From Gilvibacter sp. (GTDB lineage: Bacteria > Bacteroidota > Bacteroidia > Flavobacteriales > Flavobacteriaceae): a stretch of DNA of 64,000 nucleotides. Below are positions 1 to 7,413 of the stretch, piece after piece. The stretch's first letter is position 1. Every line of letters begins with the position of its first letter. The stretch covers positions 1-64,000 of the forward strand of contig NZ_JABSPU010000007.1 in NCBI RefSeq assembly GCF_013214815.1, in the 5' to 3' direction. A model generated the notes under the pieces. It searched no databases. It had not been told where the DNA came from and saw only the letters and a list, made by a program, of their open reading frames with translations. The translations under genes and the position numbers were made by a program.

Positions 1-396
1 GGAGTTAGCTCCGTCATTATTTAGGCCTGAACTCGCTCCTAAAAATATAGAGGACCCATCAGTTATTCCGTCTGTGAGTTCGTTGATCTGTTGAGCGCCG
101 CTACCAGAAATACTGTCCCAAGCAGTGGTGCCGTTGTTCCAGAAGTAGAATCCTGGAGGGTTACCACCATCTGTGGTGGTTAAGTAAACAAGCATGCCGT
201 GTTGTGCAGCTGCTGGGTCTGTGGTTGGAAAGGTGTCGATCCGAGGAATCAATAAACCGTCTGTGTTAGCAGGTGTTGCTTGATTACTGGCAGTAATATC
301 TAAACTGGCGCTTGGTGAAAGATTGTTGATCCCAACTTGGGCGTTAAGATTAAGAGCCAACAGGGCAAAAATCACTAGGGGTAAAATTCGTTTCAT
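1..396 (-). CDS. Secreted tail-fibre/collagen-like surface protein, N-terminal part (runs off the window)
   Basis: Open reverse frame from ATG at 396: MKRILPLVIFALLALNLNAQVGINNLSPSASLDITASNQATPANTDGLLIPRIDTFPTT..., signal peptide plus VGIN..P.ASLDI opening typical of Bacteroidota fibre-like surface proteins; not in the supplied ORF track because partial. Confidence 0.75.
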   Translation of the reverse strand, partial: MKRILPLVIFALLALNLNAQVGINNLSPSASLDITASNQATPANTDGLLIPRIDTFPTTDPAAAQHGMLVYLTTTDGGNPPGFYFWNNGTTAWDSISGSGAQQINELTDGITDGSSIFLGASSGLNNDGANS

Positions 397-511: not shown

Positions 512-545
512 AATTTTTAGTGAAGGCTACCGAATTTTTAGTGAA
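512..545 (-). promoter_or_regulatory. Candidate LytTR operator: two direct repeats AATTTTTAGTGAA at 21 bp spacing
   Basis: aatttttagtgaa at 512-524 and 533-545, upstream of the minus-strand gene starting at 396. Confidence 0.6.
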
Positions 546-2457: not shown

Positions 2458-3147
2458 TTAACGTCGGCTCATCAAAGTTTCAACTTCAGATCGGTTTTTA
2501 GTACTCATAGGTAAATCTTCTTCACCCAAAAACACACTGTCTTTGGTCACGGCAGTGACCTGATCAATATTCACTACATAAGATCGGTGAATGCGTACAA
2601 ATCGATCATCGGTAAGACCTTGCATTTGTTTTTTTAAAGTGTGCGGTAATAAATAGGTCTGTTTTTCAGTTACGATATAGCAGTAATTGTCGTAGGCTTT
2701 TAAGTACTTGATACTTTCTTTGGCGAGTTTATGCGTGCGTCCATTAACCCGAATGATCAAGGGTGATGGTGGGGTTTGTTTTTTAAGCTGATGCCAAGCC
2801 AATTCTATATTGCTCCTCAAACCGGACTCCGTAAACGGTTTGGCAATAAATCCTGAGGGATGTACCTCTTTGATTCGATCAATAGTATTCGGATCGGCCT
2901 GCGAGGTGAGAAATAAATAGGGAATCCTTTGTCGGTCTAAATGAGCTGCCAGATCGATACCGTCTTTCTCACCGTCCAGTTGAATGTCCAAAAGTACCAG
3001 ATCAACCGAATTTTGAGCTAATACTTTTTGAGCACTCTCATAACTGTCGGCGTCACCAATGACCCGATAACCCTGTTTTTCAAGTGCGGTTTCAATGGTC
3101 ACTGCGATCAGTGGTTCGTCCTCTACGATTAGAATTTTAATTGACAT
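2458..3147 (-). CDS. LytTR-family response regulator
   Basis: N-terminal receiver (MSIKILIVEDEPLIA...LLDIQLDGEKDG) and C-terminal LytTR DNA-binding domain (YCYIVTEKQTYLLPHTLK...FVRIHRSYVVNI). Confidence 0.95.
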   Translation of the reverse strand: MSIKILIVEDEPLIAVTIETALEKQGYRVIGDADSYESAQKVLAQNSVDLVLLDIQLDGEKDGIDLAAHLDRQRIPYLFLTSQADPNTIDRIKEVHPSGFIAKPFTESGLRSNIELAWHQLKKQTPPSPLIIRVNGRTHKLAKESIKYLKAYDNYCYIVTEKQTYLLPHTLKKQMQGLTDDRFVRIHRSYVVNIDQVTAVTKDSVFLGEEDLPMSTKNRSEVETLMSRR

Positions 3148-3195
3148 TGTTGCTAAAACTCGTGTTAAGCTACTGAATCTAATTCGTTTGGGCCT

Positions 3196-3230
3196 AATTT
3201 TTTAGTTAGCGCGGCTGATTTTTTAGTGAA
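3196..3230 (-). promoter_or_regulatory. Candidate LytTR operator upstream of the regulator gene itself
   Basis: aattttttagtta at 3196-3208 and attttttagtgaa at 3218-3230; AGT cores 21 bp apart. Confidence 0.6.
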
Positions 3231-3474: not shown

Positions 3475-4470
3475 TTAGGCTTCCTTGTTAAAGTAGTCAG
3501 ACTCAAAGTTTTTATTTTCTGCAGCATTATGCTGAGTAGTCCAAAATCCTTTGTGAATGGCAAAATAGCCCGTTTCCCCTTTTTTATTCATGGCGATATA
3601 GCCCACTTGGAAGTCTTTATAGTTGCTTCCAGGTTTTGAAACGATACGCTTAATAGCCTCTTCACAAGCCTCTTGAGGGGATTTGCCTTGTCGCATAAGC
3701 TCTACAATAAGAAAACTACCTACTGTTTTGACCACTTCTTCACCTAAACCGGTAGCTACTGCAGCTCCCACCTCATTGTCCACAAAGAGTCCAGAGCCAA
3801 TAATAGGACTGTCTCCCACACGGCCTTGCATTTTATAGGCTAAGCCACTGGTGGTGCAGCCCCCGGCAAGGGTTCCATCTTTATCCATGACTAACATTCC
3901 AATAGTGTCGTGGTTCTCAATATTGATAATGGGTTTGTACTTAGAGGTTTCTTTCCATTTTTCCCAGGCTGCGCGAGATTCTGGGGTAAGCAGATCCTCC
4001 GCTTCCAAACCAATAGCTCTGGCGTGCATTTCTGCTCCTTGTCCGGCCAGCATTACGTGCGGGGTGTCTTCCATCACGGAACGTGCTACTGTAATGGCAT
4101 GAGTTGTGTTTTTAAGATAAACCACAGATCCGCAGTTGCCCGTATGATCCATGATACAGGCGTCTAAGGTCACATTACCATCACGATCTGGCAAGCCCCC
4201 TTTACCCACAGAGGAGTTTTTTACATCAGCTTCTTCTATTTTGCAACCGGCTTCAACGGCATCCAATGCGGAGTTACCCGCAGCTAGACTTTCCCAAGCG
4301 GCCTTGGTTGCATTGTTAACATTCCAAGTGGCTAAAACTAGTGGTCCTCCAGGACCAGTCTCATCGGTTGGGGCTTCTTGTGAGTTCTCAGCACAGCTCA
4401 TTGCAGCTGCTGGAATACCGAGAGCCAAACTGCCCAAAGAAGTATTCTTTAAAAAGGTTCTGCGTTTCAT
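3475..4470 (-). CDS. N4-(beta-N-acetylglucosaminyl)-L-asparaginase (glycosylasparaginase, Ntn hydrolase)
   Basis: ...HDTIGMLVMDKDGTLAGGCTTSG autoprocessing-site motif; Tat/lipoprotein-like N-terminus MKRRTFLKNTSLGSLALGIPAAAMSC. Confidence 0.93.
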   Translation of the reverse strand: MKRRTFLKNTSLGSLALGIPAAAMSCAENSQEAPTDETGPGGPLVLATWNVNNATKAAWESLAAGNSALDAVEAGCKIEEADVKNSSVGKGGLPDRDGNVTLDACIMDHTGNCGSVVYLKNTTHAITVARSVMEDTPHVMLAGQGAEMHARAIGLEAEDLLTPESRAAWEKWKETSKYKPIINIENHDTIGMLVMDKDGTLAGGCTTSGLAYKMQGRVGDSPIIGSGLFVDNEVGAAVATGLGEEVVKTVGSFLIVELMRQGKSPQEACEEAIKRIVSKPGSNYKDFQVGYIAMNKKGETGYFAIHKGFWTTQHNAAENKNFESDYFNKEA

Positions 4471-4479
4471 GGTTGTGGT

Positions 4480-7413
4480 TTAATCAATTACTATTTCGTC
4501 TACAAAGATCCAAGCCTTGCCGTCGTAAGGCGCCCCGAGGTGCCATGAGGGCAAATCTCCAAGGTTTTTGGCCACGATCTTTACGTATCGCGCGCTATAT
4601 CCGTTCATACTAAAGGCTGCGGAAGCGATCTCGCTTTCATCGTCTCGAGTTGCTGAATCAAATTTTACGGCCGGAAGGTTTTTATTAAAGCTGTTGGGGT
4701 TATCAGAGATATAACATTCCACCTCTGTGGGTAGAAAGATCCAACTGCCTTGGTCTTGTAAAAAGCCTACTTTGATAGAATCTATCGCCTTAACGCTGCC
4801 CAAATCGACAATGGCAATAACATCTTGATCTTGATAGCCTTGCCATGCTCCAGTGCGGAAGTCTTCGCTGCCTCTAATTCCGTCAATTAAAGCATCATTA
4901 CCACCGGCATTGTATTGATTGGCAAATTCAGATTCCAACTTAATGCTTCGGCTAGGATCTACCTTGTAGAAGGGTGTTCTCAACACAGGGCTTTCTTGTC
5001 CGTTGAGGTTTGCATAGGTTTCTAAAACGGCATCTTCACTAAGGCTAAAAGGAGCGGTGTACTCGGCGAAATCCGCGTCATTGAGTCGATAGTAAATCAC
5101 CGCCTCTTGGTTGATGTTCTGCAAGCTTACTTCCGTCTGATTTTTAAAGGCGATCTCTCCTGCGGAGATGAACGGTGGTGTAACCACCAATTGATCGTCA
5201 ATTCTCGCTGTCGGGAGCTGCTCAGCAGCGGTGCCCCAAGTTCCCGGTTGTGGGCCCATATCAAATTCGATCCAACCGCCGTCAATTAACTCCTCATGCC
5301 ATAGATAGGATCGATCCAATGGTTTTTCATTCAGACGAACCGCTTGAATGTATGGGTTTTCCATAGAAAAATCGTTGACAATGACCGTAAAGCTTTTGCC
5401 ACTTTCCAAGTTGATGGTCGCTTTTTCCATAAGAGGAGTCCCAATAATGTACTGATTACTCGCCGGGGTGACGGGATAGAATCCTAAAGCGCTAAATACA
5501 TACCAAGCGCTCATCTGTCCGCAGTCTTCATTACCCGAAATTCCATCTGGCGTGTTGGTGTAAAGGGTAGTACCTATCTCTTGGACGTACTTCTGAGTCT
5601 TCTCTGGTTTGCCCACAAAGTTGTACAGGTAGGCCATATGATGACTCGGTTCATTTCCGTGTGCATATTGACCAATAAGACCTGTAATGTCTGCCTGATC
5701 ACGCCCTGAAGTTTCCGTTTTGGCCGTGAATAGCTGATCCAAATGCTCTTCAAAAGCCTGCGGGCCACCCATAAGGTCAATCAAGCCATTGATGTCTTGC
5801 GGAACATACAAGCTGTACTGCCACGCATTGGCCTCGGTATAATTGAAATTGACCTCATAAGGATCAAAAGGAGTAAACCATTGGTTTCTGAATCGGCCTT
5901 GCATAAATCCAGTCTCCGGGTTGAAAACATTTTTGTAATTCTGAGCTCTGCGGATGTAATTATTGTAGTCCTCTCTTTCGCCCATTTCTTGAGCCATTTG
6001 TGCAATGGTCCAGTCATCATAAGCGTATTCTAGCGTTTTGGACACAGATTCACTCTCTTGCTCCATAGGGACATAGCCAAACTCTTTGTATCCTTCAAGA
6101 CCCAAATGATCACGTGTAGCACTGTGTTTCATAGCTTCCAATGCCAGATCAGTATCGTAATCACGCAAACCTTTCATATAGGCGTCTGCAATCACAGGAA
6201 TGCCGTGATAGCCGATCATACAACCTGTATAATTGGCGCTGAGATCCCAAATTGGAATTATCCCCCCTTCTTGGTATTTGGCGAGCATAGTCTTGACAAA
6301 ATCGTTGGTGCGCTCTTGTTCAAATATCGTATAAAGTGGATGTGCAGCTCGGTAGGTATCCCACAATGAGAAAACCGTGTAATAATTGAAATCGGCTTGA
6401 TGAATCTCTAAATCCATTCCGCGATAACGGCCGTCCACATCTTGATACAAATTAGGTGCGAGCATGCTGTGATAAAGGGAAGTGTAAAAGTTGAAAAGCG
6501 CTTCTTCATTTTGGTTTTCAACCACGATCTTTTGTAATTGGGCTTCCCATTTTTCCTCGGCACGAGCGCGGAGTTGATCAAAGGTCAGTTCACCTACTTC
6601 CGCCTCGGCGTTGGCTTTTGCACCTTCCTCATCAACGGCAGATATTCCCACGGTCACATAAAGCGGTTCTTCATCATTCTTGTCAAACTCTAAGGCCGCT
6701 TTGCGCTTTTTCAATCCATTTCTCAAAAAAGTCGATTGCTTGACCGGCTTGGAGAATTTAATGTAGAAGAATAGGCGCTGATCTGTAGCCCAGGCCTCAG
6801 AGAATCGATACCCACTGAACTCTGTAGTGGAGATTTGCTCCATATCAAATTCCAAGAGTTTGTCTCGGTGGTCCAGATCAATGACAATAAACTGGCGTAC
6901 GTCTTTGTCAAACTCATATTTATGCATTCCGGCGCGTTCACTGGTGGTGAGGCTCACAGTGACCTTAGTGTCGTCCAGTCTGACTTGATAAAACCCTGGC
7001 GAGGCGATCTCATTCTCATGAGAGAATTTAGAACCATAACCGGCCAAACCGTTAGCACCATTATTGAAGTTCAATGAATTGGTAGGAGACAAAAGGAGGT
7101 CTCCATAGTCACTTACCCCGGTCCCACTGAGGTGGGTATGGGAGAAGCCGTAGATATAATCATCAGAATAGTGGTAGCCACTACAACCGTCCCAGCCATC
7201 TAAGCGCGTGTCTGGGCTGAGCTGCATCATTCCAAAAGGTAGGGTGGCACCAGGATACGTATGTCCATGGCCGCCTGTTCCAATAAATGGATTGACGTAG
7301 GAAATTAATTTTTTCTCTTGTTTAGCAGGGGCTGGACCTTGAGGTGAGCAGCCAATAATAAAGGCTAGCAGGAAGTATCCAAGCAGTGATCGGTACATGC
7401 GGTAGTTTTGCAC
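4480..7413 (-). CDS. GH92 family alpha-1,2-mannosidase lipoprotein with C-terminal chitobiase-like/F5-8C-like region
   Basis: VNPFIGTGGHGHTYPGATLPFGMMQLSPDTR, DGISGNEDCGQMSAWYVFSALGFYPVTP, characteristic of GH92. Confidence 0.95.
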   Translation of the reverse strand: MQNYRMYRSLLGYFLLAFIIGCSPQGPAPAKQEKKLISYVNPFIGTGGHGHTYPGATLPFGMMQLSPDTRLDGWDGCSGYHYSDDYIYGFSHTHLSGTGVSDYGDLLLSPTNSLNFNNGANGLAGYGSKFSHENEIASPGFYQVRLDDTKVTVSLTTSERAGMHKYEFDKDVRQFIVIDLDHRDKLLEFDMEQISTTEFSGYRFSEAWATDQRLFFYIKFSKPVKQSTFLRNGLKKRKAALEFDKNDEEPLYVTVGISAVDEEGAKANAEAEVGELTFDQLRARAEEKWEAQLQKIVVENQNEEALFNFYTSLYHSMLAPNLYQDVDGRYRGMDLEIHQADFNYYTVFSLWDTYRAAHPLYTIFEQERTNDFVKTMLAKYQEGGIIPIWDLSANYTGCMIGYHGIPVIADAYMKGLRDYDTDLALEAMKHSATRDHLGLEGYKEFGYVPMEQESESVSKTLEYAYDDWTIAQMAQEMGEREDYNNYIRRAQNYKNVFNPETGFMQGRFRNQWFTPFDPYEVNFNYTEANAWQYSLYVPQDINGLIDLMGGPQAFEEHLDQLFTAKTETSGRDQADITGLIGQYAHGNEPSHHMAYLYNFVGKPEKTQKYVQEIGTTLYTNTPDGISGNEDCGQMSAWYVFSALGFYPVTPASNQYIIGTPLMEKATINLESGKSFTVIVNDFSMENPYIQAVRLNEKPLDRSYLWHEELIDGGWIEFDMGPQPGTWGTAAEQLPTARIDDQLVVTPPFISAGEIAFKNQTEVSLQNINQEAVIYYRLNDADFAEYTAPFSLSEDAVLETYANLNGQESPVLRTPFYKVDPSRSIKLESEFANQYNAGGNDALIDGIRGSEDFRTGAWQGYQDQDVIAIVDLGSVKAIDSIKVGFLQDQGSWIFLPTEVECYISDNPNSFNKNLPAVKFDSATRDDESEIASAAFSMNGYSARYVKIVAKNLGDLPSWHLGAPYDGKAWIFVDEIVID

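Follow-up and report, generated by a model that had tools for sequence, protein, structure and literature searches.

The locus studied here raises the question of which protein reads the paired direct repeats that lie at both ends of a two-component system, and which genes would be controlled through them. The window (the whole stretch of 64,000 nucleotides that was analysed, contig C117 of the 3.0-Mb Gilvibacter sp. genome, G000) carries the following features near its start.

1..396, minus strand: 5' part (132 codons) of a gene for a fibre-type surface protein; the contig ends within the gene, and the rest is on contig C70
480..487, minus strand: -7-like box of S2, TACTTTAG, starting 34 nt from the A of ACT in the proximal half site
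514..544, minus strand: candidate operator S2, with distal TCACTAAAAA (544-535) and proximal TCACTAAAAA (523-514), period 21, just past the kinase stop codon
547..2457, minus strand: sensor histidine kinase, 636 aa (Pfam HisKA_2 4e-26, HATPase_c 2e-8, TPR_12 1e-6)
2458..3147, minus strand: LytTR response regulator, 229 aa, with receiver and LytTR domains (Pfam PF00072 2e-21, PF04397 1e-16)
3165..3172, minus strand: -7-like box of S1, TAGCTTAA, starting 34 nt from the A of ACT in the proximal half site
3199..3229, minus strand: candidate operator S1, with distal TCACTAAAAA (3229-3220) and proximal TAACTAAAAA (3208-3199), period 21, 5' of the regulator gene

The regulator scored as a LytTR-type response regulator, with 76 bits for PF00072 (cut-off 30) and 61 bits for PF04397 (cut-off 23), and its named relatives point to Flavobacteriaceae. 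The kinase consists of a signal peptide, a TPR region, one membrane stretch, HisKA_2 and HATPase, the signal peptide and membrane stretch having been read from the sequence. The fibre gene lies directly downstream of the kinase gene; its 5' part is 87% identical to residues 1-132 of a protein of the congener G002, and contig C70 starts at residue 141 of that protein. The full-length G002 protein has 832 aa and includes the endosialidase chaperone domain Peptidase_S74. Contig C70 holds the remainder of the fibre gene together with a tandem paralogue, whose identity to the G002 protein is about 50%, and the assembly break between C117 and C70 probably lies in repeated fibre-gene sequence. Asparaginase_2 and GH92 genes adjoin the two-component system in the window (3475-7413) and in G030 (L125). 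In G042 (L126) an asparaginase-like gene is present beside the system and GH92 was not seen there, and both G030 and G042 harbour cyanophycin-type genes (large synthetase-like and peptidase-like frames) on the system's other side. The neighbourhood is conserved despite an inverted order of the kinase and regulator genes.

On the minus strand, S1 reads TTCACTAAAAA-N10-CTAACTAAAAA, with the box TAGCTTAA farther downstream. The sequence-only reading had placed the two plus-strand AGT cores of S1 at 3204 and 3225, which was correct to the base (3204-3206 and 3225-3227, 21 bp apart). The distance of 32 nt that it gave between the proximal core and the -7-like box was also confirmed (3204-3172), and the same value was obtained at S2 (519-487); counted from the A of the coding-strand ACT, both distances are 34 nt. 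Both half sites of S2 are perfect, with AGT at 519 and 540. The S1 box is a weak match (4 of 6) and is conserved as TTTCAGTAGCTTAAC in G000 and in the congeners G001 and G002, in which the S2 box is conserved as ATTACTTTAG. A scan of the window with TMACTAAAAA-N11-TMACTAAAAA, allowing up to 3 mismatches, returned S1 and S2 only, both perfect. In shuffled sequence 0.02 pairs were expected and none of 100 shuffles reached two.

The complete genome was scanned by pattern matching, with the reversed pattern as the control. Only three perfect pairs were found (S1, S2 and C84:76998-77028), all of them intergenic. With up to one mismatch the count remained at three, against none in the control. At 2-3 mismatches, the number of matches was about equal to that of the control (8 vs 5). 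The match with two mismatches (C102:929) was rejected as a site, being inside coding sequence. The sequence-only reading had named one outcome as counting against it, such pairs being as frequent in shuffled or coding sequence as in promoters, and the scan did not give that outcome. For the other seven LytTR genes of the genome, no 11-mer direct repeat spaced by 18-24 bp (at least 10/11 identical) was found in the 250 bp upstream, and the motif is therefore not common to all LytTR proteins of the cell.

The third site lies beside a radA-like gene in G000 and G002, where some 120 nt and then a terminator come after it. A small RNA was considered for this stretch (L020 7000-7181, G000 C84) and rejected, as G001 has a gene for a 1197-aa type IX-secreted protein at this place. 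The sequence before the terminator in G000 corresponds to the last ~75 bp of the G001 gene, and the two genomes are 93% identical there over a 156-bp stretch that takes in the terminator and the end of the convergent gene. Judging from this comparison with G001, the third site is a relict operator-promoter, the secreted-protein gene having been deleted in G000 and G002 save for its last ~75 bp. A full-length homologue of the secreted protein was not found elsewhere in G000 or G002. The 31 bp of the relict operator are still identical between these two genomes.

Exactly three sites were present in each of G001 and G002, in the same three places as in G000, S2 included. In a third congener (G003), neither the regulator nor the sites were found. 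The regulator was then searched for, independently of the motif, among 301 genomes of the family. Orthologues scoring at least 170 bits (at least 42% identity to the query) were detected in 21 genomes, and the remaining genomes scored 147 bits or less. With G002 added, the orthologue set comprised 24 regulator genes from 22 genomes and 18 genera, two genomes having two each. At least one pair was found within about 10 kb of all 24 regulator genes, at a tolerance of up to 3 mismatches for period 21 and up to 2 for periods 20 and 22, for which well under 0.1 chance pairs per locus are expected, judged from the reversed-pattern genome control. None of these pairs was inside a long reading frame. 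Most were located 5' of a gene, at about 50 bp from that of the regulator or at about 50-130 bp from one for a secreted protein; besides G001 and G002, nine further loci kept an S1-type site 5' of the regulator gene. The site occurred only at the target in some orthologous loci and only at the regulator in others. Six less related LytTR loci had no pair (0/6), and contigs from named genomes of less close relatives (L022-L101) yielded no convincing site. Strict pairs were present in 8 of the 21 orthologue-bearing genomes and in none of the 280 others. Four genomes found through the regulator only (G015, G148, G157 and G267) had no pair with up to one mismatch, but had pairs with 2-3 mismatches beside the regulator. 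In G106 (L154 3714-4102), two divergent operators, identical over 31 bp, each precede a different fibre-type gene. Operators with no recognisable downstream gene were seen in G042 (L126 6725-7034), where about 280 nt with terminator-like hairpins follow, and once in G119 (L205 9510); these may be relict sites or may give rise to small transcripts.

The half site across these loci was TTCACTAAAAA, an A-rich motif of moderate information content in which the C and T of ACT were invariant (76/76 half sites). Among 300 half sites (up to one mismatch) in 490 kb of loci, a spacing of 21 was observed for 27 pairs and a spacing of 20 for 5, with single counts elsewhere and one pair in all in the shuffled control; some of the scanned loci overlap and a few sites were counted twice. 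In 34 of 38 sites a TAnnTT sequence was present 34 or 35 nt downstream of the proximal ACT, where the background is 1.1% at each offset (p about 1e-51), and the count was 26 of 30 after close relatives were dropped (p about 5e-39); these p values overstate the independence of the sites, although the effect is plain. The -7 box has been mapped at -12 to -5 in Flavobacterium psychrophilum (PMC9723704), and, if the box here has the same span, the proximal repeat would lie at about -48 to -40, adjoining the -33 region. The operator has the form of a LytTR-type direct repeat, TTCACTAAA-12-TTCACTAAA (with a spacer of 11 in one clade), with the -7 box at a fixed offset.

The period of the repeats varied with the regulator. 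Linked sites of period 20 were found for three regulators (G106C30, G119 and G330), which form a single clade (support 0.994). In G119 and G330 there is also an unlinked site beside a radA-like gene, again of period 20, and it precedes a homologue (42-45% identity) of the type IX-secreted protein of G001, in which the corresponding radA-linked site has period 21. The G106 homologue of the radA-linked gene is elsewhere in the genome, with no site in its upstream stretch. That an unlinked site changes period along with the site at the regulator itself is the strongest evidence in this analysis that the regulator reads both. The recurrence of the site at orthologous regulators, the fixed distance to the -7 box and a period that follows the phylogeny lend support to the autoregulation and the defined regulon motif that had been predicted from the window.

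The sites precede regulator-kinase operons and mosaic proteins that share an N-terminus (VGIGNT..SLDI) and differ in their modules (Peptidase_S74, C1q/BclA_C, YadA head, phage tail collar). Other targets were LRR proteins, proteins carrying type IX sorting domains, one small membrane protein and a family with a sub-threshold match to MAT_N (NF053851): one G106 target matched this profile at E=2e-10, with 40 bits against a curated cut-off of 60. No match to MAT_N at E 1e-3 was seen in the other targets scanned, including the fibre family of the window. The domains of these targets suggest a fibre and trimer character. A wider picture, put forward tentatively and with somewhat less than even odds, is that of a switch operating throughout the family and dedicated to chimeric surface fibres that resemble phage tails. 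In it, the kinase would be a sensor of the envelope or of a binding partner, and the regulator would turn on interchangeable fibre genes, swapped behind a conserved operator-promoter cassette.

Taken for the window itself, S1 and S2 are likely (probability roughly 0.88) to be operators of the LytTR regulator encoded at 2458-3147, through which the regulator-kinase operon and the adjacent surface-fibre gene would be activated. The kinase, with its TPR sensor region and HisKA_2 domain, presumably phosphorylates the regulator. A regulator dimer would then bind both 9-mers of the TTCACTAAA type, which would share one face of the DNA, the 12-bp spacer placing them two helical turns apart. The proximal ACT would stand 34 nt upstream of a TAnnTTTG-type -7 box, its A near -46 if the box spans -12 to -5, and the bound regulator could recruit RNA polymerase to promoters with no obvious -33 box. 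Activation of the regulator-kinase operon would amount to positive autoregulation, the adjacent surface-fibre gene would be activated as well, and in some relatives so would the unlinked gene for a type IX-secreted protein. Direct binding, phosphorylation, activation over repression and the signal are steps that we infer, whereas the motif, the spacing, the promoter phasing, the co-occurrence with the orthologue and the covariation of period and clade are directly visible in the DNA.

The sign of regulation is the part of this model for which another outcome has most to be considered. The repeats might be the operator of the regulator and yet serve repression, or repression by the unphosphorylated and activation by the phosphorylated form. 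Nothing in sequence by itself proves the sign, and AgrA can repress from sites downstream of the promoter (PMC4227749). Here, however, the operator is upstream of the -7 box, in fixed phase and adjoining the -33 region, and an obvious -33 box is missing, a layout like that of promoters that depend on an activator. LytTR regulatory systems in which repeats of this kind lie upstream act as activators (PMC6193735). Both points make repression unlikely.

It is less probable still that another transcription factor reads the repeats and that the LytTR two-component system is simply one of its targets. Seven further LytTR proteins and many other regulators are encoded in the genome and could be proposed for this role, but those LytTR genes are not preceded by such repeats, the strict pairs were confined to genomes with an orthologue of the regulator, and the period covaried with the regulator clade even at the unlinked site. 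Chance or base composition, by which A-rich intergenic sequence would yield look-alike repeats, could be argued from the A-rich half site and from the genome matches at 2-3 mismatches, which were about at control level. Perfect and near-perfect pairs were nevertheless absent from the controls, and spacing and promoter offset were fixed across 18 genera, so that this explanation is hardly credible. Activation by the LytTR regulator from S1 and S2 is the reading retained.

For a LytTR regulator, this reading provides an operator that can be tested by experiment, together with its precise phasing relative to the -7 box of Bacteroidota and a regulon of small size. It would link a two-component system to mosaic surface fibres, whose mostly unannotated genes gain a regulatory handle, and the natural variation between 20- and 21-bp spacing could be useful for studying LytTR-DNA recognition.

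LytTR proteins are known to bind direct repeats of 9 bp that are separated by 11-13 bp and adjoin the core promoter on its upstream side (PMC6193735). The combination of a 9-12-9 direct repeat in this position and positive autoregulation is well established for LytTR regulators (PMC6193735, PMC4227749). The repeat pair fits this arrangement, so the mechanism is not new. The sequence-only reading had spoken of an undescribed LytTR system; the geometry is classic, and it is the motif, the regulon and the promoter coupling that appear undescribed. Within a partial coverage of the literature, no description was found of this motif, of a LytTR operator in Bacteroidota or of a regulator for such fibre genes. 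The system resembles AgrA of S. aureus and HdrR/BrsR of S. mutans in its LytTR domain, its 9-bp direct repeats (spacer 12 here, 11 in one clade) and its presumed autoregulation. It differs from them in its half site (TTCACTAAA), in having a Bacteroidota -7 box instead of -35/-10, in its partner, which is a HisKA_2 kinase and not AgrC or a membrane inhibitor, and in a regulon of surface fibres. In the LytTR regulatory systems known as LRS, a LytTR regulator without a receiver is paired with a membrane inhibitor and no kinase, whereas a HisKA_2 kinase and a receiver domain are present here.

A TPR sensor region in the kinase is shared with FimS-FimR of Porphyromonas gingivalis, which activates surface adhesin (fimbria) genes (PMC11053733, PMC1974823). 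Against the NCBIfam FimS model (NF053520), the kinase scored E=1e-10 and 40.5 bits, far from the cut-off of 600, and does not class as FimS. FimR is a LuxR-type regulator, not a LytTR protein, and fimbriae are a different structure from the fibre proteins found here. Although the best target match fell below the cut-off, the targets, as predicted fibre proteins, are like the mosaic adhesive trimer (MAT) fibres of Bdellovibrio in sharing a conserved N-terminus and swapping modules and tips (S74 chaperone, C1q-like, collar and YadA head).
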